Shown here one piece after another: positions 327-40,681 of a stretch of DNA of 40,681 nt (position 1 is the stretch's first letter; every line of letters starts with the position of its first letter). The stretch is from positions 1 to 40,681 of IMG/VR virus record IMGVR_UViG_3300020201_000048; one strand, given 5' to 3'. The stretch is from a virus. Below the pieces are notes generated by a model. The model saw only the letters and a list, made by a program, of their open reading frames with translations, had not been told where the DNA came from and searched no databases. Both the position numbers and the translations under genes were made by a program.

Positions 327-330
327 TCAT
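1..330 (-). CDS. Glycine-repeat (Gly-X) protein, 3' end cut by window edge
   Basis: Seen: a reading frame starts at ATG 330 (MTGVIDGGG...) and stays open to base 1, where it reads Gly-Val-Leu-Gln with the stop just outside. Nearly every second residue is Gly; the others are Tyr, Asp, Gly, Ser, Arg or Phe. The start overlaps the stop of the preceding gene as ATGA, with GGAG six bases upstream as ribosome site. The same MTGV...GVLQ layout recurs at 40369-40608 and 40605-40681, so this is one member of a tandem family that runs across the contig ends. No catalytic motif is visible. Known low-complexity Gly-X chains serve as flexible, adhesive or condensate-forming segments, but the function here is unknown. 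The position in the early operon argues against a tail adhesin. The Ala/Val/Asp/Thr frame is also open, but it lacks a good start. Confidence 0.6.
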   Translation of the reverse strand, partial: MTGVIDGGGGGYGGGDGDGYGYGGGGGGGGYGGGRGYGYGDGYGDGYGGGGGGSGGGGGRGDGTGRGDGSGGGRGDGGGYGDGYGYGYGYGFGGGFGDGGGGGSGGGVLQ

Positions 331-776
331 TGTAAACTCCGTTCCAGTGCGTCAGCCCACTTGCCGCCTCCGGCGTCTTTAAGTTGCCGGATCGTCATAG
401 TGACGTCAGCGTCCAATCCGCGCTCGTCTAACCATGTTTTTATGCCGCTACGACACGCTTTCGTGAGACGTTTAAACAAGCTGACTGAAAATCGAAAATT
501 TTCAGCCCGGTACTCTAGCTTTTCTGCGTTTGATAGTGGCTCTGATATCCCGAGTTTTTCGCGCGCTTCTAATATAGCTTCAACTACGCTATCTCCGTGT
601 GCACACGCCACCGCGCCGGGGAGTTCCACGAAATACGATTTTCTACCGCGGCTATCGTAGAGAATCTCGACTATTTCGCCGCCCGGTGCTGTGAAAATCT
701 CACCTTCTGTGCGCAACTCTATGCCGTCCCTGTATGCGGGCCGACGCGTGTTTATTGTTGTCACGTTATGCGCCAT
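327..776 (-). CDS. Hypothetical early phage protein, 149 aa
   Basis: I do not recognise this family. The protein has a beta-rich N-terminal half (about residues 20-65, with GGEIVEILYD and KSYFVELPGA) followed by a charged alpha-helical half (about 66-149). It starts 11 bases inside the end of the DUF6948-type gene, and its last codons overlap the start of the glycine-repeat gene as ATGA. It is therefore part of a tightly coupled minus-strand early operon read from the promoter at 1787-1815. Base composition is ordinary, in sharp contrast to the repeat tract that follows it. There is no signal peptide or membrane segment. Confidence 0.75.
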   Translation of the reverse strand: MAHNVTTINTRRPAYRDGIELRTEGEIFTAPGGEIVEILYDSRGRKSYFVELPGAVACAHGDSVVEAILEAREKLGISEPLSNAEKLEYRAENFRFSVSLFKRLTKACRSGIKTWLDERGLDADVTMTIRQLKDAGGGKWADALERSLQ

Positions 777-1095
777 ATTTCAGCACCGACTGCCAGGCCT
801 CCGCCGTCATCTCTGCAATTTCTAACCCCGCTGGGTTTATAATCGTAACAGTCGGCAACACAGCCCCGATACTGTGCTCTGAGCCGGTTTTCAGCCCATT
901 TGCAGCAACGTCGGAAATTGAACCCGAGCTGTCACGAGTGTATACACGCCACAGTCTGCGCACTGACGATAACTGAATCGTGCTCGATGCGAAATCAATC
1001 GCTACGACAATTCCGGCGTGTACCCCCGCGACGTTTGCGCGAACAATTACTGATTTACCAACAATATTTTCCTGCAGAGTGTTTTTAGTTTCCAT
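766..1095 (-). CDS. DUF6948-like phage protein, 109 aa
   Basis: Seen: VGKSVIVRANVAGVHAG near the N-terminus, then a strand ending in RRLWRVY, then a C-terminal IINPAGLEIAEMTAEA segment. This pattern (VIVRt.sAGVHfG, aRRiWyw, A.EI) matches my recollection of the DUF6948 family of small phage proteins of unknown function. A longer reading frame extends to 1212, but ATG 1095 is chosen because AAAGGAGG lies nine bases before it and because the family begins close to this point. It lies between the ribbon-helix-helix gene and the 149-aa gene in the early operon. Confidence 0.75.
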   Translation of the reverse strand: METKNTLQENIVGKSVIVRANVAGVHAGIVVAIDFASSTIQLSSVRRLWRVYTRDSSGSISDVAANGLKTGSEHSIGAVLPTVTIINPAGLEIAEMTAEAWQSVLKYGA

Positions 1096-3279: not shown

Positions 3280-4621
3280 GCCTATTGTGATTGATAGTGA
3301 CACACCCACTGACATCTCAACGGGATACACACCTCGTGAGCTTCAAGCGCGCATGCATTTATCTGTAAAAAGATTTAACGTAATCGTGTGCCATCGTAGG
3401 TTTGGCAAGACTGTGTGGGCGATAAATCATTTGATTGATAAGGCTTTGCGTTCAAAGCTGCCTATGCCTAGGTTTGCTTATCTTGCGCCAACCTACGGGG
3501 CGGCAAAGCGTATTGCGTGGGATTATCTGAAGTCATTTTGCATTAACATCCCCGGTGTTGAGTTTAACGAAGCGGAATTGAGAGTTGAGATACCGAGCAA
3601 CAAAGCGCGCATCATGCTTTTGTCAGCTGAGAATCCAGGCAGTCTTCGCGGGATTTATCTTGATGGATGTATCTTAGATGAGTTTGCTGAGATGAATCCA
3701 GAGGCGTGGACGACAGTCATTCGGCCGACGCTAAGTGATCGTCGTGGGTGGGCTATATTTATTGGGACGCCGAAGGGGACGAATACGTTTTATGAATTAT
3801 ATGAGTATGCGCAAAGTGGGCAAGATCATGAGTGGTATAGTGCGAAGTTTAAGGCCTCTGAGACGGGGCTTATTAGGCAAGAGGAGTTGGAGTCAGCTCG
3901 TCGCACGATGGCAGAAGAAGAGTTTGAGCAAGAGTTTGAGTGTTCGTTTTCAGCGGGCTTGGTTGGGGCGTATTTTACTAAAGAGTTATCAGCGGCTGAA
4001 AAGCAAGGTCGCATCACCAAAGTCTTACACGACCCATCCCTCCCAGTTGACACTTACTGGGATCTTGGAATCAACGACATGTGCGCGATCTGGTTCGTAC
4101 AAACATTACGAGGGCAGCACAGGGTCATCGATTATTTCGAAATCTCAGGGGCGAGCATCCCGGACGTCTTAAGAGATGTGCGCAGTAAGCCTTACAACTT
4201 TGGGAGATTTGTATTGCCGCATGATGCGCAGGCCAGAGATTTCTCGACGGGCAAAGCGCAGGTGCAGATATTTCGTGACCACGGTGTGAGAAACATTACG
4301 ATAGTGCCGAGGGTGGGCACGAAGCGTGAGGGGATCAATGCTGCGAGGATGATCATACCGATGTGTGAGTTTGATCAAGACAAGTGCAAGCAGGGACTCA
4401 AGGCACTTGCGAACTATCAGCGTAAGTGGGATTCTAAGAATAACGTATTTCAGGATAACCCACTTCACAACTGGGCAAGCAACGGCAGCGACGCGTTTCA
4501 ACAGTTTGGGTTAGGCGCAAGAGATGATTCGAGGAGTAGTGCGTTTTTAAATCAGATGTCTAGCCAACGACAGGCTCACGATGAGCCAACGGCTGATGTT
4601 GAGTATAACATTTACGAGTGA
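3272..4621 (+). CDS. Terminase large subunit (packaging ATPase/nuclease)
   Basis: Motor that drives DNA into the prohead and cuts the concatemer. Seen: Walker A CHRRFGKT (residues 40-47), Walker B with catalytic Glu in YLDGCILDEFAE (about 129-140), coupling motif IGTPKG (164-169). A C-terminal RNase H-like nuclease domain has acidic residues at D264 (YWDLGIND), E290 and D318 (LPHDA). The 449-aa length is normal for this group. It overlaps the small subunit gene by eight bases and is followed seven bases later by the next gene. Confidence 0.95.
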   Translation: MRKPIVIDSDTPTDISTGYTPRELQARMHLSVKRFNVIVCHRRFGKTVWAINHLIDKALRSKLPMPRFAYLAPTYGAAKRIAWDYLKSFCINIPGVEFNEAELRVEIPSNKARIMLLSAENPGSLRGIYLDGCILDEFAEMNPEAWTTVIRPTLSDRRGWAIFIGTPKGTNTFYELYEYAQSGQDHEWYSAKFKASETGLIRQEELESARRTMAEEEFEQEFECSFSAGLVGAYFTKELSAAEKQGRITKVLHDPSLPVDTYWDLGINDMCAIWFVQTLRGQHRVIDYFEISGASIPDVLRDVRSKPYNFGRFVLPHDAQARDFSTGKAQVQIFRDHGVRNITIVPRVGTKREGINAARMIIPMCEFDQDKCKQGLKALANYQRKWDSKNNVFQDNPLHNWASNGSDAFQQFGLGARDDSRSSAFLNQMSSQRQAHDEPTADVEYNIYE

Positions 4622-4627
4622 GGGATT

Positions 4628-5116
4628 ATGGCGATAAAAACTCCTTATGACCAATATATACCAGGGTCGATACAACGACCCATTGATGGGCCAGTTGGTC
4701 GCATTCGTGCGCGCATGGCGCTTAAGGAAAACCCAACTGGTGGGATTGAAGGACAGGTTTTAGACCCAAACTCATCAGCACAGCCCGCTAGTGTGCGCGA
4801 CCCGTTGGGAGCAAGGCTCAATATAAACCCGACACTGCTTGAGCAATATATTTCATCACCAGCTGGGCAATCTGGCGGGGGGGCGAAGCTCAGAGGCGCG
4901 CGTGTATTTTCAGCCCAAGATCGTCCAGGGTATTCGCCTGATCCAGGTGTGACGGAAGCCTACGCAGGGTTTTATGACTGGATGAAGACGGATAAGGAGA
5001 GGCTACGTGCGCATGAAGAGTATGTGGCGCTATCTAAAGAAGCGCCGGGGCGCCGTGAGTCAATCTTGGGAAGTAGTCAGGGAAGCAATCAAACAGTTTT
5101 AGGCGCGACAGTTTAA
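4628..5116 (+). CDS. Hypothetical head-region protein, 162 aa
   Basis: Not recognised. It is a soluble, Pro/Gly-rich protein without signal peptide or membrane segment. A motif-like stretch, PGVTEAYAGFYDWMKTDKERLRAHEEY, around residues 101-130 looks helical, and the termini look disordered. GAGG lies four bases before ATG 4628. It lies between the large terminase and portal genes, so a packaging accessory or minor head role is likely by position only. Confidence 0.75.
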   Translation: MAIKTPYDQYIPGSIQRPIDGPVGRIRARMALKENPTGGIEGQVLDPNSSAQPASVRDPLGARLNINPTLLEQYISSPAGQSGGGAKLRGARVFSAQDRPGYSPDPGVTEAYAGFYDWMKTDKERLRAHEEYVALSKEAPGRRESILGSSQGSNQTVLGATV

Positions 5117-25759: not shown

Positions 25760-25772
25760 GATGAGGACACAC

Positions 25773-27410
25773 ATGAAAATTAAAAAATACATAGTTATCG
25801 GACTGCTGCTAACCACGACGGCTTGGGCAGGAGCTAAGATTCAGCGCCAGGGGATTAAAACCCCAGCTGAGTGTGTGGCTGCAGGCTCAACAGCCGCTGC
25901 GTGCTCTCCTCTTGCATCACAGATCTACGACGCGCAACACGCGCAGGGGCTCGATACTACGATCCAGTATCTCGATGCGACAAGCTCGATTCAAACTCAA
26001 CTTAATGGCAAGCTCACGAGCACTCTGCCAAATACGAATATCTTCGTGGGTAACGCAGGCGCATCGGCCGTCGCTGTCGCGATGAGTAATGATGCCACTC
26101 TAGCAAACACTGGTGCGCTAACTTTAGCCAACACAGCCGTCACGCCAGGGTCGTACACGAATACGAATCTTACTGTTGATAGCAAAGGTCGAATCACTCT
26201 CGCGGCAAACGGTACTGCAGGCAGCAGCGCACTATCTAACAACAATATCTATGTTGGCGGAGTGGGCAACACTGCCGTTGACGTTGCAATGTCGGGGGAC
26301 GCAACGATCATCAACACGGGAGCCGTGACGTTAGCCAGCACAACTGTCACGCCAGGTGCGTATACGAATGGTAATTTTACCGTCGACGCTAAAGGTCGCT
26401 TAACCTCAGCGGCTAACGGCACCGCGGGCAGCAGCGCACTTTCAAACAACAACATCTATGTGGGTGGTGCGGGCAACACAGCAGTTGACGTCGCAATGTC
26501 AGGTGACGCAACGATCATTAATACAGGTGCTGTTACGATTTCACCGTCAGTTGTTACTAACTCTAAGCTTGCTAACATGGGCGCGAGTACGATCAAGGGT
26601 AACGCGACTCTAGGGTCTGCCGCACCTACTGATCTCAACGGCTCACAAGTCACTATCATGCTCAACACGATGGTGGGTGACTCAGGTAGCGGCGGTGCGA
26701 AAGGCTTAGTACCTGCTCCAGCGGCTGGTGATGCAGCGGCATCGAAGTTCTTAAAATCTGACGGAACGTGGGCGGTAGCAGGCGGTAGCAGCTCAGGCGG
26801 GTCAACCGTCTTAATTCACTATCTAGTCCCTGGTGCGGGGACATACACTACGCCAACAGGCCCAGCCCCTACATATCTCAAAGTGACATTAGTTGGCGGT
26901 GGCGGAGCATCATCAGAGCGAGCCGCCAGCGCTGGCGGGAATGGTGGCTCAACATTTTTTGGGGCATCCCTTTTGACGGCAACAGGCGGCAACGGTGGTC
27001 CCACAACAGTCGGACTAGGCGGCAACGGTGGGGGCGGGACGATCAACGCACCGGCAAATGGGATTACATTTGCTGGCGGTACTGGCGGATCTGCGGGCGA
27101 CACGGCCTACGCAGTAGGCGGCGATGGTGGCTTCAGTATTATGGGACCAGGTAGCCCAGGTGCAGGTGGAAGCAGCTCTAATTATACAGCGCTCAACGCC
27201 GTTGCTTTTGGCAGCGGCGCGGGAGGATGTAACGGTGGGACAGCAGGTCAAGGTTGCAATGGTGGTGGTGGTGGTGGTGGCTTAATCGCGATCATCCCAA
27301 ACCCATCCGGAACGTACGGTTACAACGTGGGGGCGCTTGGCGGCCTATTGGGCGGTAGTTATAATTCAACAGGAAAACAAGGGCTGATTATAATAGAAGA
27401 ACACTACTAA
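25773..27410 (+). CDS. Fibre-like protein 4 with signal peptide, tandem repeats and Gly-rich tip, 545 aa
   Basis: ATG 25773 is chosen over ATG 25761 because TGAGGA lies five bases before it and it begins the signal peptide (MKIKKY, IVIGLLLTTT, AWA/G). The mature part holds a LNGKLTSTLP entry unit, then 69-residue repeats of the type NIYVGGxGNTAVDVAMSGDATI...TVDAKGRLTSAANGTAGSS (encoded at 26031-26540). A STIKGNA...SAAPTDLNGSQV joint and a FLKSDGTWA unit follow. The last 180 residues are very Gly-rich (GGNGG-type), resembling the polyglycine-rich tips of phage adhesins such as T4-type gp38. It may be the surface-binding member of the set. Confidence 0.75.
   Translation: MKIKKYIVIGLLLTTTAWAGAKIQRQGIKTPAECVAAGSTAAACSPLASQIYDAQHAQGLDTTIQYLDATSSIQTQLNGKLTSTLPNTNIFVGNAGASAVAVAMSNDATLANTGALTLANTAVTPGSYTNTNLTVDSKGRITLAANGTAGSSALSNNNIYVGGVGNTAVDVAMSGDATIINTGAVTLASTTVTPGAYTNGNFTVDAKGRLTSAANGTAGSSALSNNNIYVGGAGNTAVDVAMSGDATIINTGAVTISPSVVTNSKLANMGASTIKGNATLGSAAPTDLNGSQVTIMLNTMVGDSGSGGAKGLVPAPAAGDAAASKFLKSDGTWAVAGGSSSGGSTVLIHYLVPGAGTYTTPTGPAPTYLKVTLVGGGGASSERAASAGGNGGSTFFGASLLTATGGNGGPTTVGLGGNGGGGTINAPANGITFAGGTGGSAGDTAYAVGGDGGFSIMGPGSPGAGGSSSNYTALNAVAFGSGAGGCNGGTAGQGCNGGGGGGGLIAIIPNPSGTYGYNVGALGGLLGGSYNSTGKQGLIIIEEHY
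26031..26540 (+). repeat. 207-base tandem repeat within fibre-like gene 4
   Basis: Three units start at 26031, 26238 and 26445, exactly 207 bases (69 codons) apart. The second and third are close copies, the first is more diverged, and the third is cut short at about 26540. They encode the NIYVGG...NGTAGSS shaft module. Unit number could change by recombination, altering fibre length. Confidence 0.8.
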
Positions 27411-29372: not shown

Positions 29373-30461
29373 CTAGGATGTGTGTAGTTTATGCAACTTT
29401 GGTCGCACGATTTGCACGACACAGATGGCACAAAACAGGGCTGGAAAAGCCATTCTACATGGGTAGTTAAACACTCCCCATGTGATGATGCCGCAGATGA
29501 CTGAAAAGTATGGGCCGGTTTGATGCCAAGCCTTCCGCACGACATCGACAGTTGCCCATAAGAGCAAAGAAAATCCGACAACGCCAAGCTCGATGAACGC
29601 TTGCAGCCAGTCGTTGTGGTACCACAGCCACATATCAATCGCGGGACCACGCCACTTAGGTAGCATCGATTGCGTTGTGCCCAGGCCAAATCCAAATAGC
29701 TGCTGCGACAGCTCCCCTTTCGTCCAATGCTCAAGCCCCAGCTGCCACACACCGAATCGATTAGAGTTATTAAAGAACTCTATGCCGCGTAAGAATGGGT
29801 ACATAATCGTACAGATGGTCACGGTAAGAAACCCGATAACGATGATGTAAGGCCGCGTTCGTTTTTCACGCTGTGCTACGTAGGCTAACGCCACAACGCT
29901 TAAGATGATCCAAGGCACAGAAGCATCAAGTAAGAATATCGCAACACATGACGTGAGAACAATCCCACATGCGCTGAGGGCGTCAAACGCATCATACGAT
30001 TTCGTGAGCAAAAGTGGAACAGCGCATGCGATCAGGCATCCTGTCATACTAGGATTACCAATAAAAATACCGCGATCAAATACAGCGTATCCTAAGCACG
30101 CTTTGACTATCACACCGATGGCGACAAAAAGTGCTGACACACCAAGCGCCGTTCTGGCTGTGTATCTTCCGGTTGCTAGTGCGATAACGGTCACACTCAA
30201 GATACTGATTAAAGCGTAGGCTGAATTTCCGACGGCGTTTAAATTATACAGGCCATTTGTGTATGCAAACGCTACCACGCCACTTGCCAGCGCGTAGCCT
30301 AGAGCCAGCGCAATTGAGATTGGTCTTATTCTTGAGACCCCGATGACGACGGATAAAACAAGAAGCGCGCACCACGGGAAGAGCCATGTTTTATTCCAAT
30401 AATTTATACCTGGCGCATACATTAAGACAGCAAACACGGACGCGAAGACCAAGCCATTCAT
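29373..30461 (-). CDS. O-antigen ligase/polymerase-like (Wzy_C) membrane protein, 362 aa
   Basis: Seen: about ten hydrophobic segments and a large periplasmic-type loop (about 225-310) with FGFGLGTTQSMLPKW and YHNDWLQAFIELGVVGFSLLL. This is the hallmark of Wzy_C/WaaL proteins ('G.GlG.......~~HNd~Lq~~~E~GivG'). Known members join or polymerise O-antigen in the inner membrane. Here it would alter host surface polysaccharide during infection. It overlaps the VRR-NUC gene as ATGA with AAAGG upstream, so it is an integral part of the phage operon, not a stray host fragment. Ligase versus polymerase cannot be decided. Confidence 0.75.
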   Translation of the reverse strand: MNGLVFASVFAVLMYAPGINYWNKTWLFPWCALLVLSVVIGVSRIRPISIALALGYALASGVVAFAYTNGLYNLNAVGNSAYALISILSVTVIALATGRYTARTALGVSALFVAIGVIVKACLGYAVFDRGIFIGNPSMTGCLIACAVPLLLTKSYDAFDALSACGIVLTSCVAIFLLDASVPWIILSVVALAYVAQREKRTRPYIIVIGFLTVTICTIMYPFLRGIEFFNNSNRFGVWQLGLEHWTKGELSQQLFGFGLGTTQSMLPKWRGPAIDMWLWYHNDWLQAFIELGVVGFSLLLWATVDVVRKAWHQTGPYFSVICGIITWGVFNYPCRMAFPALFCAICVVQIVRPKLHKLHTS

Positions 30462-37121: not shown

Positions 37122-37414
37122 TACTCGAGCACAATCCCAAGCACAGCTCGTGCAGGCCCAACACCATAGCGACCACGGTGGAGTAATTTTCTTTTGTACT
37201 TCGATGGCAGCCCACGCGCAAAACTGTTGATTGAAATCTGACTAGGGCCAAGATGATTCACGCGCCGCCATCCACGGTAAGCCGCGAGGATATCGCAGAT
37301 GTACGCATGCCCATCTTTTTTCTCTCTCGTTCGTTCCATTATAAACATTGTTATACTGTCCCTTTCGTTCCAAAACTTTTTACGTGTTGCGTGGTCTTTG
37401 CTAAATTCGGTCAT
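37121..37414 (-). CDS. Stand-alone winged-helix-like protein (primase C-terminal type), 97 aa
   Basis: Seen: ITMFIMERTREKKDGHAYICDILAAYRGWRRVNHLGPSQISINSFARGLPSKYK, then a C-terminal GPARAVLGIVLE. The pattern 'f..e........~i~..Y..W......~s...F.r.L......k.....~..a..GI.L' is that of the winged-helix domain at the end of D5/P4-type primase-helicases. Such a domain is also present in the neighbouring primase, so this may be a detached second copy that binds origin DNA. It overlaps the primase gene by 14 bases, with AAGGAG nine bases before ATG. Confidence 0.5.
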   Translation of the reverse strand: MTEFSKDHATRKKFWNERDSITMFIMERTREKKDGHAYICDILAAYRGWRRVNHLGPSQISINSFARGLPSKYKRKLLHRGRYGVGPARAVLGIVLE

Positions 37415-39818
37415 GACTTGCTACTCCTTCTTGATTGGAAAACTTTGCAAACTTATACGCGCGAGTGCGGTGCCCGTGATGCGTTGTTGAAAAACTCCCA
37501 TCGGCTCTTGTAAAAATAAAATTCGTGAGCACCCTACCAAAACTATAAATGTTCACTGTATGCTTAATCCCACTGACTTCAGACCATTGCTTAAACTTGA
37601 CGTAACAATCCGAAATATGCACAATATCATTTGGCGATGTTGTAACTTCTATTTCTTCCTTCGCCCAATCCATAATGGGGTTACCAGCTGTCAAAAACGC
37701 AGTCTGCGCTTTTAAATGTTCTTGTGAGTCACGCGCGACAAAAAACTTCCCGTCATTATCGTTAATCTTCGTTTGTATCCTGCGCACAAGCATGGATAAT
37801 ATCGCGGGCACTTCGGACTTGAGCCTATCTTCCACACTCGGATCTTTTTTCGTGATCATATGATCAAACGGTATGACAACAAGTCTGCGTTTAATCGACT
37901 CACCACCTTCATGAAACTTCGGCACACGATTGGCCGAAAATATCAGCTTTGCCTGATTATGAAACTTGTATCCTTGCTGATTTTTTCTCTCAGCACTCAT
38001 CTTGCCACCGGCTGACATGTTTTTAAGCGTATTTAACTGCTCTGAATCAAGGTCACTGCCAGATGCCTCTTCACAGAGATTGACAAGCTTGCCTTCTAAG
38101 TTTGCGGGCTGAAATCTATTCCTAGTTAACTGGTCTATGTTAATTGCCGAGTAATTTAGCTCTCCAACCATCGCGCCAATCACGTTAAGAAGCGTCGATT
38201 TACCGTTAGCCCCTTCGCCAACAAAATATGTAAACAGATGGTCATCAAAGCTTGGCCATAAGCAGTACGCCATGATGTCAAGTAAGCTTTCGATGAACTC
38301 AACTCGACTCATCGTCACTTGGTCTAGCCAATCAAGGAAAAACTCACTCGTAAGATTTGCCGTGTAGTCATACGGCAACACATATTGAAACCCAACAGTC
38401 GGCGTATGCGGCAAAAATTGCCCAGTCACAATATCAAGCATCCCGTTTCTACAGTTAAGCTTGCCCTTTATAGATTCATTGAAAAGATGCTCTTCTGCTT
38501 TTTGCCCAATGGACCCTGTCACCTTGATGCGAGCTAAAAACTCATTCCTGTGCATCTCTCGCACGTCATCGTTAGGCACAACTGTCTGATCAACCCACGC
38601 TTTCACGCGAAGAGGCTCCACTGGCACATAGTGCGTGCGATCAAACACAAGCATGCGCTCACCCATGCCGGTGATGTATGAGTTCTTTCGTATATAGAGC
38701 TTCTCTATGTCAGAATAATTAGGGTGCGTGCGCTTACCTTTTTTGTCATACACCCAGTACCCGTTAGCGTCAGAGCCAATATGCTCAGGTCCCTTGAGTG
38801 CAAGCGGTGTTGGTATCTTTGCAAAGTGCGGGCAATCACTGCACCCACCCCAGCGTGTGTTGATCGTCTCGCAGGTGCGCGAGCCATAACGCTTACTTTG
38901 TGCCCACTTATCTTCAAACACAGCCCCGGCAAGGCTTGCCGAGGCACTTGCCCCATCAAACACGCGCCTGCCTAACGACTGTGGATCGTACTCCACTTCG
39001 CCAACTTTAACCTTCGATGCTGGCTGCACCGTTGAGAGCAGCGAGAATAGATCAAACGCATGCGGCTCATGCACCTCGTTTGGGTGATTCACTGCCCACT
39101 GCATGAACTGGCAGCCAGTAAACATCGCCTCAAAGTCAGGATGCGGGTAGTGACGTCGTATATCCTCGGGACTTACATTCTCCTCGCCTGCCTCTTTAAG
39201 CCCTGAGATCTTAAATAAGTCGATCTCCAAGACAGCCGTCGCTAACTGTATAAGCTCACAAGGTGAGTCAGGTTTATTACTCTTCTTATTTATGGTGCTT
39301 GGTAGCCTAAGCACACGGGCTGGCTCAAATATCGATGTGTCCACTTTATCGACAGTCAGCCCTGACTCACGAATGAGCGTGTTTAATTTGAAACAAACTT
39401 CGCCGTATGCTAATTTATTTTTCTTAAAATACCCCACATCTCGTATAGGTGTCTTAAGATTTACAAGCAGGTGTACGCCGTTGCCACTATTGACCACAGT
39501 GATTGACTGGCTTGCAATATCAAGGATAGATGCCAGATGCGCTGCGTACTCAAGCGCGCGCGTTTGGTCTGTTGTGTCCAAATCCCACGCAAGCACTGTT
39601 TGATGCGAAAACGTAGCGTAAGTACGTTGCGGCGTGGGGGATGTATCAGCGCCACTATGATGAGCTAACGTGTAGAATAAATTGTAATGCTCATCTACGG
39701 GTAGCTTTGCTAACGTGTCCGCCAGATGCGTAAATACGCTAGTAATATTATGTAGATGAATTGGTTGATTGGGTAGCGGTAGGACAAACCCACCACGCTG
39801 AGCGATGATCTGAATCAT
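37401..39818 (-). CDS. Primase-helicase: AEP primase + zinc motif + SF3 helicase, 805 aa
   Basis: Makes primers and unwinds DNA at the fork. Seen: an archaeo-eukaryotic primase-like N-terminus with LAWDLDTTD (about 77-85), VNSGNGVHLLV and VDTSIFEPARVLRLPSTIN. A cysteine cluster (CETINTRWGGCSDCPHF) follows, then an SF3 helicase with Walker A GEGANGKST (about 534), acidic Walker B NLCEE (about 581) and sensor IFSANRVP (about 626). The C-terminal winged-helix domain (ISDCYVKFKQW...) follows. ATG 39818 is chosen because it overlaps the upstream stop as ATGA; the frame also opens at TTG 39824. This P4/D5-type architecture differs from T7 gp4. Confidence 0.92.
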   Translation of the reverse strand: MIQIIAQRGGFVLPLPNQPIHLHNITSVFTHLADTLAKLPVDEHYNLFYTLAHHSGADTSPTPQRTYATFSHQTVLAWDLDTTDQTRALEYAAHLASILDIASQSITVVNSGNGVHLLVNLKTPIRDVGYFKKNKLAYGEVCFKLNTLIRESGLTVDKVDTSIFEPARVLRLPSTINKKSNKPDSPCELIQLATAVLEIDLFKISGLKEAGEENVSPEDIRRHYPHPDFEAMFTGCQFMQWAVNHPNEVHEPHAFDLFSLLSTVQPASKVKVGEVEYDPQSLGRRVFDGASASASLAGAVFEDKWAQSKRYGSRTCETINTRWGGCSDCPHFAKIPTPLALKGPEHIGSDANGYWVYDKKGKRTHPNYSDIEKLYIRKNSYITGMGERMLVFDRTHYVPVEPLRVKAWVDQTVVPNDDVREMHRNEFLARIKVTGSIGQKAEEHLFNESIKGKLNCRNGMLDIVTGQFLPHTPTVGFQYVLPYDYTANLTSEFFLDWLDQVTMSRVEFIESLLDIMAYCLWPSFDDHLFTYFVGEGANGKSTLLNVIGAMVGELNYSAINIDQLTRNRFQPANLEGKLVNLCEEASGSDLDSEQLNTLKNMSAGGKMSAERKNQQGYKFHNQAKLIFSANRVPKFHEGGESIKRRLVVIPFDHMITKKDPSVEDRLKSEVPAILSMLVRRIQTKINDNDGKFFVARDSQEHLKAQTAFLTAGNPIMDWAKEEIEVTTSPNDIVHISDCYVKFKQWSEVSGIKHTVNIYSFGRVLTNFIFTRADGSFSTTHHGHRTRAYKFAKFSNQEGVASHDRI

Positions 39819-40009
39819 AGGCAAGCGTCCATCTTCGAATCAAACAACGTCAGGGGGGGTACGTCAGGTGTGTACTTCCCACGACGTAGGCAACCAGCAA
39901 GCGCCCACGCAAAATCCGCCCCGTTAAATATAAACTCCATCGCCCCGAAATAATCCTTTGCAAATACCCGCGCCTCTTCTAACTCTTTAGTTAGATCGTA
40001 TGTACTCAT
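39815..40009 (-). CDS. Small hypothetical protein before the primase, 64 aa
   Basis: ATG 40009 (MSTYDLTKELEEAR...) has AGGGG nine bases upstream; an earlier in-frame ATG at 40030 is less well placed. It is an amphipathic helical protein with an aromatic stretch (YFGAMEFIFNGADFAWALAGCLRRG) and a disordered tail. No family recognised. Its stop overlaps the primase ATG, so it is translationally coupled to primase. Confidence 0.65.
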   Translation of the reverse strand: MSTYDLTKELEEARVFAKDYFGAMEFIFNGADFAWALAGCLRRGKYTPDVPPLTLFDSKMDACL

Positions 40010-40051
40010 TGATGCCATCCCCTGCCCCATTGCGAAATTGTTGGATGACCA

Positions 40052-40080
40052 ACGTAACGGTACGGTGTGGAAGTGGTCAA
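40052..40080 (-). promoter_or_regulatory. Weak promoter candidate before the primase operon
   Basis: On the minus strand TTGACC (40080-40075), a 17-base spacer and TTACGT (40057-40052). The -35 context GGCTTGAC is the same as in the promoter at 35704-35709. The -10 element is poor, so this is tentative. Confidence 0.3.
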
Positions 40081-40137
40081 GCCAAACCTCACGACAATAC
40101 GCGCTGTAAACATCATTAGACTATGAGTAACATACAC

Positions 40138-40326
40138 CTAATGGACAGCTGTAGACCTCGCAAGAATGGCCTCCATAGCCTGATTACAACAATCCTCGCA
40201 TATCTCCTTACCCTCGGCGAAAATAATCATCGTGTGTGTATCCATGCAATCATCAGGATATGCGCAGTCACAATAGCCTGCCTCGCAAGCGTTACACCAA
40301 AATATTGATGGTGTTGGTGGGATCAT
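40138..40326 (-). CDS. Small cysteine-rich protein, probable zinc binder, 62 aa
   Basis: Seen: eight Cys in 62 residues (C11, C14, C19, C21, C27, C43, C46, C47), including WCNACEAGYCDC and ICEDCC, which suit one or two zinc sites. AAGGTG lies four bases before ATG 40326. No family recognised. It is the first ordinary gene after the glycine-repeat array in the minus-strand direction. Confidence 0.65.
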   Translation of the reverse strand: MIPPTPSIFWCNACEAGYCDCAYPDDCMDTHTMIIFAEGKEICEDCCNQAMEAILARSTAVH

Positions 40327-40368: not shown

Positions 40369-40608
40369 TCATTGTAAAACTCCGCCACCGCCACAGCCGC
40401 CACCGCCACAGCCGCCGCCGCCTCCGAATCCGCTACCGTCTCCGCTACCGTCTCCGCTACCGTGTCCGTCTCCGTATCCGTATCCGTATCCGTATCCGTA
40501 TCCTCGCCCGCCTCCGAATCCGCTACCGCCACCGCCACCGCTACCGCCACCGCCACCGCCACCGTCTATTACGCCACCGTCTCCGCCACCGTCCATTACG
40601 CCAGTCAT
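40369..40608 (-). CDS. Glycine-repeat (Gly-X) protein, complete copy, 79 aa
   Basis: Starts MTGVMDGGGDGG and ends GGGGVLQ. The middle is Gly alternating with Ser, Tyr, Asp, Arg, Phe, His or Cys, with GYGYGYGYGYGDG as the longest regular run. ATG 40608 overlaps the stop of the preceding copy as ATGA, with GGAG seven bases upstream inside that copy's last codons. The same GGAGTTTTACAATGA sequence at its own end could restart translation, but the following frame (Met-Ser-Gly-Thr) stops at once, so the array ends here. The two Cys in the last 15 residues are not found in the copy at 1-330. Confidence 0.6.
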   Translation of the reverse strand: MTGVMDGGGDGGVIDGGGGGGGSGGGGGSGFGGGRGYGYGYGYGYGDGHGSGDGSGDGSGFGGGGGCGGGGCGGGGVLQ

Positions 40609-40681
40609 TGTAAAACTCCGCCACCGCCACCGCCACCGTCTATTACGCCACCGTCTCCGCTACCGCCGCCGCCTCCGCTAC
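40374..40681. repeat. CCGNNN hexamer repeat tract, right end
   Basis: Same hexamer design as bases 1-326, dominated by CCGCCA and CCGTAT units. It is interrupted by ATTACGCC and by the gene junction CATTGTAAAACTCCG (40606-40620). The ends of the contig do not overlap exactly, so some repeat sequence is probably missing between base 40681 and base 1. Confidence 0.85.
40605..40681 (-). CDS. Glycine-repeat protein, 3' end only (start beyond window)
   Basis: The frame enters from the window edge as Ser-Gly-Gly..., contains a second GVIDGGGGGGG block and ends GVLQ with TGA 40607-40605. It shares GGDGGVIDGGGGGGG with the start of the complete copy at 40369-40608, showing recent duplication. It is most likely the copy after the one truncated at base 1, if the two contig ends are neighbours in the phage. 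Confidence 0.55.
   Translation of the reverse strand, partial: SGGGGGSGDGGVIDGGGGGGGVLQ

Follow-up and report, generated by a model that had tools for sequence, protein, structure and literature searches.

Tandem Gly-X repeat genes accompany DUF6948, a predicted Sm-like protein, in a phage early-gene module

The locus examined here raises the question of whether long tracts of alternating glycine codons at the ends of a viral contig are genes, and what such genes might do for a phage. The window, a 40,681-base IMG/VR virus record whose large terminase is approximately 45% identical to those of the Pelagibacter podoviruses HTVC034P and HTVC010P, breaks inside a Gly-X (GX) repeat at both contig ends. 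At least three (Gly-X)n open reading frames (ORFs) are present on the minus strand and the window ends inside the array; the tandem array of Gly-X genes described by a first-pass annotation is real, and its coordinates and junctions were correct (table). The MTGV...GVLQ frame which that annotation assigned to three ORFs was found at the starts of the copies at 330-1 and 40608-40369, but not for 40681-40605, whose MTGV start lies outside the window because only the C-terminal part is present. The end of 40681-40605 differs from that of the copy at 330-1, giving at least three copies, a lower bound since both contig ends fall within the repeat.

The minus-strand order is the 149-aa gene, GX copy 1, a gap, the end of a further GX copy, the last GX copy, two small genes and a D5-type primase, and the early-operon position of the array was confirmed. 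As proposed, GX copy 1 is joined to an ordinary gene in the same way as the copies are joined to each other, with the ATGA at 330-327 overlapping the TGA of the 149-aa gene; the signs of translational coupling are an ATGA overlap and a Shine-Dalgarno (SD) sequence in the last codons of the preceding gene. The claim that each end sequence supplies the SD and start of a next copy held between copies but not for the last copy (40369), which is followed by an ordinary 62-aa gene (40326-40138) and no further copy. The replication module downstream of the array is wholly different in the window (37401-40326, D5-type primase) and in locus L004 (3329-4955, a 231-aa protein and a 316-aa P-loop, DnaB-like protein), placing the array at a mosaic boundary. 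Elsewhere in the window, a 362-aa membrane protein (29373-30461, minus strand) matched Wzy_C (O-antigen ligase, PF04932, 34 bits), an unusual podovirus cargo possibly involved in host surface modification, and a direct duplication of approximately 207 bp (26124-26518, 81% matches) was located within a tail-fibre-like gene (25761-27410).

Table. Features of the early operon and of the GX array in the window
Feature	Coordinates	Strand	Remarks
145-aa gene	1743-1306	minus	Early operon, ahead of 56-aa gene
56-aa gene	1303-1133	minus	Early operon, between 145-aa gene and DUF6948 gene
DUF6948 protein, 109 aa, predicted Sm-like barrel	766..1095	minus	PF22253 profile, E 9e-11; structure model
149-aa partner, 'CAHG...LTxAC' domain, without Pfam family	327..776	minus	Homologues elsewhere fused to GX repeats
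GX copy 1, MTGVIDGGGGGYGGG...GVLQ (MTGVIDGG start), 110 codons, stop off contig	330-1	minus	
Further GX copy, C-terminal end only, ...SGGGGGSGDGGVIDGGGGGGGVLQ* / ...GVIDGGGGGGGVLQ*	40605..40681	minus	
Last GX copy of array, MTGVMDGGGDGGVIDGG...GVLQ* (MTGVMDGG start), 79 aa	40369..40608	minus	
Coupling junction, 149-aa gene end to GX copy 1	327..341	minus	SD GGAG 340-337; TGA overlaps ATG
Coupling junction GGAGTTTTACAATGA between GX copies	40605..40619	minus	
Junction-type end GGAGTTTTACAATGA of last GX copy	40369..40383	minus	

The GX family is defined here as strict (Gly-X)n with X mainly S/Y/D/N, a start of the form M..(I)DG, and a position adjoining DUF6948. The window array belongs to this family, its copies being richer in Gly at X than most. 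A search of IMG/VR by DUF6948 alone returned 17 loci, rising to 31 with a 14-sequence alignment, and (GX)n ORFs adjoined DUF6948 in 30 of the 31 (27 under a strict automatic criterion). The single exception was a contig end, the other end of the same contig carrying (GX)n. A GX gene was also present beside DUF6948 in 18 of 18 annotated-collection records examined. The converse search, which used only the DNA pattern ID-G-x-(G-X)n, yielded 99 loci, 57 of them with a strict (GX)n ORF; DUF6948 was present for 46 of the 57 (41 in the locus and at least five elsewhere in the record), while 11 were without it in the record at hand, many of these records being fragments. Furthermore, (GX)n arrays were absent from 79 loci of related terminases (TerL) without DUF6948. 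The sole automatic flag among those loci (L051) was a Ser/Ala-rich ORF unrelated to GX.

When the window's own DUF6948 protein was compared with phages by tblastn no match was obtained, whereas divergent members used as queries matched 16 phage records (PhiPLPE twice, as GenBank and RefSeq; one query was a composite with an altered N-terminus, serving as a probe only). Every phage genome so matched contained a GX ORF beside DUF6948. Phages with this arrangement include seven Pectobacterium phages of the Ymer genus, Dickeya phage Setonix, Vibrio phage IKEMa6-1, Iodobacter phage PhiPLPE (where the GX gene is unannotated), Chlorobiaceae phage CV-1-33, two Manatee Spring podoviruses, and two human gut scaffolds, one with a short tract. 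Two bacterial replicons have the pairing as well: one contains a prophage-like locus of Neisseria gonorrhoeae, the other a Monoglobus element in which GX is part of a fusion. The Neisseria GX ORF (L249, 2737-3054) is unannotated and lies in a 2.17-Mb record filed as a plasmid in PLSDB. DUF6948 and MIDG(GX)n patterns gave no match in GTDB genome contigs, the patterns being strict enough that prophage copies such as that of Neisseria would escape; the exact junction pattern had no match in viral contigs in one search and only two near relatives in another. GX tracts of Chlorobiaceae phage CV-1-33 (L236, 3313-3558) and ctRVW222 (L239, 1505-2077) were annotated in the wrong frame (MAMALAMA...), and L132 has, upstream of DUF6948, another repeat ORF (4460-4732) that alternates Gly-Gln/Gly-His and so varies the GX theme in its composition.

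By computational evidence, the (GX)n ORFs are genes that encode proteins and are almost always present in a conserved module of phage early genes, made up of the DUF6948 protein, the (GX)n protein and, for one large group, a 'CAHG...LTGAC' protein. The array is one instance of a widespread module found in many unrelated phages and not a single-phage oddity, the DUF6948 and 'CAHG...LTGAC' partners having been missed by the first-pass annotation. An artefact of assembly or slippage, which would mean that the tracts are not genes, might be suspected from the window and L003 contigs, both of which break in the tract. Chance is excluded, and an artefact is refuted as a general explanation and of negligible probability, as the array recurs in independent assemblies and the same anatomy is found in cultured phages (Iodobacter PhiPLPE, the seven Ymer-genus Pectobacterium phages, Vibrio IKEMa6-1 and Chlorobiaceae CV-1-33).

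The Gly codon was nearly constant within one genome and varied between genomes (GGC, GGT, GGA or GGG), and X codons mostly ended in C or T, partly in G in a few phages. The 2986 non-Gly X residues included 843 Ser, 780 Tyr (~26%), 635 Asp and 169 Asn, these four accounting for 2427 (81%), with only 14 Leu and 5 Pro. In many phages the hexamers are limited to three (Gly-Tyr, Gly-Ser and Gly-Asp). Transitions from X to X were near random, leaving little order in successive X residues, and Arg/Lys were almost absent from most GX proteins. Composition and length of GX, not sequence, appear to be kept. Gly codons differ between phages yet X stays Ser/Tyr/Asp/Asn, which places the selection on the protein. 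Matches of GX tracts to Pfam TrAA12 and Serglycin were dismissed as low-complexity matches, and a collagen-like (G-X-Y) phage protein was rejected as the GX period is two residues, not a triplet, and there was no such Pfam match.

Three gene architectures were observed. The genes are either separate and coupled, as in the window, or DUF6948 and GX form one polypeptide in frame (L176), or GX stands in front of a homologue of the 149-aa gene in one polypeptide (L122, L151, L153, L200, L237, L238 and L248), the fused homologues being recognisable by CAHG and LTGAC/LTGSC motifs. In-frame GX-CAHG fusions also occur in gut phages and Monoglobus. With these fusions, the frame in which the repeat is read no longer depends on any argument from start codons, and the three proteins are linked to one another. 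The fusions also bear on a function at the nucleic-acid level, in which GG every six bases would form a structured RNA/DNA tract (e.g. a two-tier G-quadruplex) or a recombination hot spot and the protein would be incidental. At the DNA level, GG every 6 nt is all that stays constant across GX tracts, the array lies at a mosaic boundary, and recombination genes are often near; such a function is nevertheless very improbable given that X is confined to S/Y/D/N whatever the codon ending, that starts, SD coupling and stop overlaps are conserved in the Gly frame, and that the repeat is fused in frame to folded domains. The structure model of the 149-aa partner was fair (pLDDT 87), and Foldseek against the PDB gave no credible match; the nearest viral models (BFVD) are uncharacterised, the best match being named 'Lamprin' (A0A8S5SZK3). 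A similarity of this partner to CarD (E 0.002) was discounted, the match spanning a SUMO-CarD fusion junction and consisting mostly of one short motif.

An SD-like motif was present ahead of 64 of 86 GX starts, compared to a background of 16%, and an ATGA overlap was found at 54 of the 86. The conserved GX tails GVLQ/E/K and GW(E/D)EVxS encode the ribosome-binding site of the next gene. As read from the sequence, GX starts and stops are placed such that coupling would let the genes be translated in succession, with tandem copies sharing the end of the upstream gene. In L094 the partner-gene end (GGCTGGGAAGAGGTGAAATCATGA) is identical to the GX-gene end, as expected if GX copies have spread by recombination through shared junctions, which we infer. 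The fragments examined contain between one and about eight copies. Among seven cultured sister phages the DUF6948 gene was 399 nt in all, while the GX gene was 162, 204, 222, 222, 222, 258 or 270 nt, and all gaps in the GX alignment were multiples of six, bearing out the expectation of length changes by units of 6 nt that preserve the frame. Ymer and Amona share an identical DUF6948 yet differ in GX; L092 and L093 differ by 60 nt, and L004 and L005 have gaps of 30 and 6 in one GX copy while another copy is identical.

A role in coating RNA or DNA, suggested by the first-pass annotation, was not upheld: GX proteins are acidic (window copies net -6 and -5, with X mainly S/Y/D), making direct nucleic-acid coating unlikely. 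Acidity, early position and hypervariability between sister phages would suit a counter-defence decoy, in which a variable acidic chain imitates nucleic acid or titrates out a protein of the host's defences and an arms race drives the repeat variation. This account is improbable, however, as the composition is kept whichever of several phyla the host belongs to while order is apparently unconstrained, which a generic low-complexity role fits better, and as the pairing with DUF6948 is near constant.

The window's DUF6948 protein is a clear member of PF22253 (42.1 bits against a cut-off of 27), and 33 of 33 relatives matched it too. An AlphaFold (AF2) model built on 33 sequences had a mean pLDDT of 91.4 and a pTM of 0.84; in it a helix and three strands are followed by an insertion, two more strands and a second helix. 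The top 50 Foldseek matches of this model in the PDB were all of Sm/LSm type (probability ~1.0, TM (target) up to 0.78, best E 5e-3), and the model contains the alpha helix followed by five strands of the Sm barrel. DUF6948 is thus predicted to have an Sm/LSm (Hfq-type) barrel fold. Sequence profiles of Sm, LSM and Hfq did not recognise the window protein: LSM14 gave E 0.0087 and 16.5 bits against a cut-off of 30, and Hfq did not match. In the family LSM14 was the second most frequent Pfam match (7 of 33, below cut-off) and the only recurrent weak Sm-type match. The Sm2 motif IRG(N/D) between strands 4 and 5 is absent, the region reading VTIINPAGLEI with no conserved RG in alignments A1/A2, which makes DUF6948 Sm-like by fold and not a Hfq/LSm member. 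Arg19 and Arg47 are invariant and Trp49 is near-invariant; these residues could form a binding face.

The best explanation, given a rough probability of 0.4, is that GX is a disordered acidic partner of the Sm-like DUF6948 protein that tunes nucleic-acid binding. The GX polypeptide would be a disordered, acidic, tyrosine-bearing low-complexity chain acting with DUF6948 mostly in trans, and in cis when fused, through competition for the basic face and/or multivalent self-association, like Hfq C-terminal tails. In E. coli, the acidic disordered C-terminal domain of Hfq and nucleic acid compete for the Sm core (PMC5606850); in A. baumannii, Hfq is tuned by a glycine-rich stretch of GGFGGQ repeats together with an acidic tip (PMC11617691). 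Sequence order would be irrelevant, composition and length being what counts, such that hexamer slippage and copy number would serve as a dosage or valency dial. A DNA-recombination role would also fit, the position beside RecE/Erf/SSB genes being compatible with it. Points against the explanation are the modest Foldseek E-value (5e-3), the commonness of SH3-like barrels, the absent Sm2 IRG, and the 11 of 57 GX loci without DUF6948. Somewhat more tentatively, the module may constitute a phylum-spanning phage system, so far undescribed, whose Sm-like RNA/DNA-binding protein is under the control of a separately encoded, hypermutable Gly-X chain, with length and copy number tuned by hexamer slippage and tandem duplication.

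The main rival to this reading as a tail in trans is that GX itself is a condensate-forming or cohesive scaffold, with Tyr stickers and Gly/Ser/Asp spacers, concentrating replication or recombination proteins with DUF6948 as client or anchor. Consistent with this are the share of Tyr among non-Gly X, the variation of length and copy number as valency would vary, and the genes nearby (Erf, RecE, RecT and SSB among the neighbours; in the window also primase, Pol A and SNF2 helicase); moreover, phase separation is seen in disordered Gly-rich proteins in which Arg and aromatic residues recur periodically (PMC11794139). A scaffold of this kind, also raised by the first-pass annotation, is nonetheless less likely than the tail reading: net negative charge disfavours simple coacervation and the near absence of Arg/Lys from most GX proteins removes the cation-pi driver.

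Lytic phages and prophages linked to Pseudomonadota, Bacillota and Chlorobiota carry this module of two or three genes, and cultured phages are among them. Many records are fragments, and the Sm assignment of DUF6948 rests on a predicted model. The GX-DUF6948 pairing appears to be undescribed. In the non-subscription literature searched there was no mention of 'DUF6948' or of GX repeat strings, no published text on DUF6948 function, nothing relevant on glycine-repeat phage proteins and, as the first-pass annotation had supposed, no described phage system of such form; the Ymer-genus paper does not mention glycine, and the phage record annotates both genes as hypothetical. The module has probably escaped notice because low-complexity filters remove the repeat genes, or because annotation skips them or reads them in another frame. 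Should DUF6948 prove to be a phage Sm protein, riboregulation or control of recombination by a phage gene could be tested directly. The Ymer-genus phages offer a natural length series for the GX repeat gene.

Among known systems, Pfam DUF6948 (PF22253) covers the window's neighbour, its GX pairing being unrecorded in the resources examined. Eukaryotic LSM14/EDC3/LSm proteins were the top structural matches of DUF6948, a likeness confined to the barrel and without sequence-level membership. Glycine-rich low-complexity proteins (tick GRP, silk-like, and the phage 'Lamprin') share Gly-rich low complexity with GX, which differs from them in being an acidic phage early gene product with strict dipeptide alternation. 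In Acinetobacter and other Moraxellaceae, Hfq has an Sm core, a long glycine-rich GGFGGQ tail and an acidic tip (PMC11617691, PMC5663733). Similarly, DUF6948-GX couples a predicted Sm-like barrel to a glycine-rich, acidic, disordered chain, and repeat number matters in Acinetobacter. Unlike in that Hfq, the GX chain mostly has a gene of its own, frequently repeated in tandem, keeps strictly to Gly-X alternation and is carried by phages, and DUF6948 is unrecognisable as Hfq by sequence and without the Sm2 signature.
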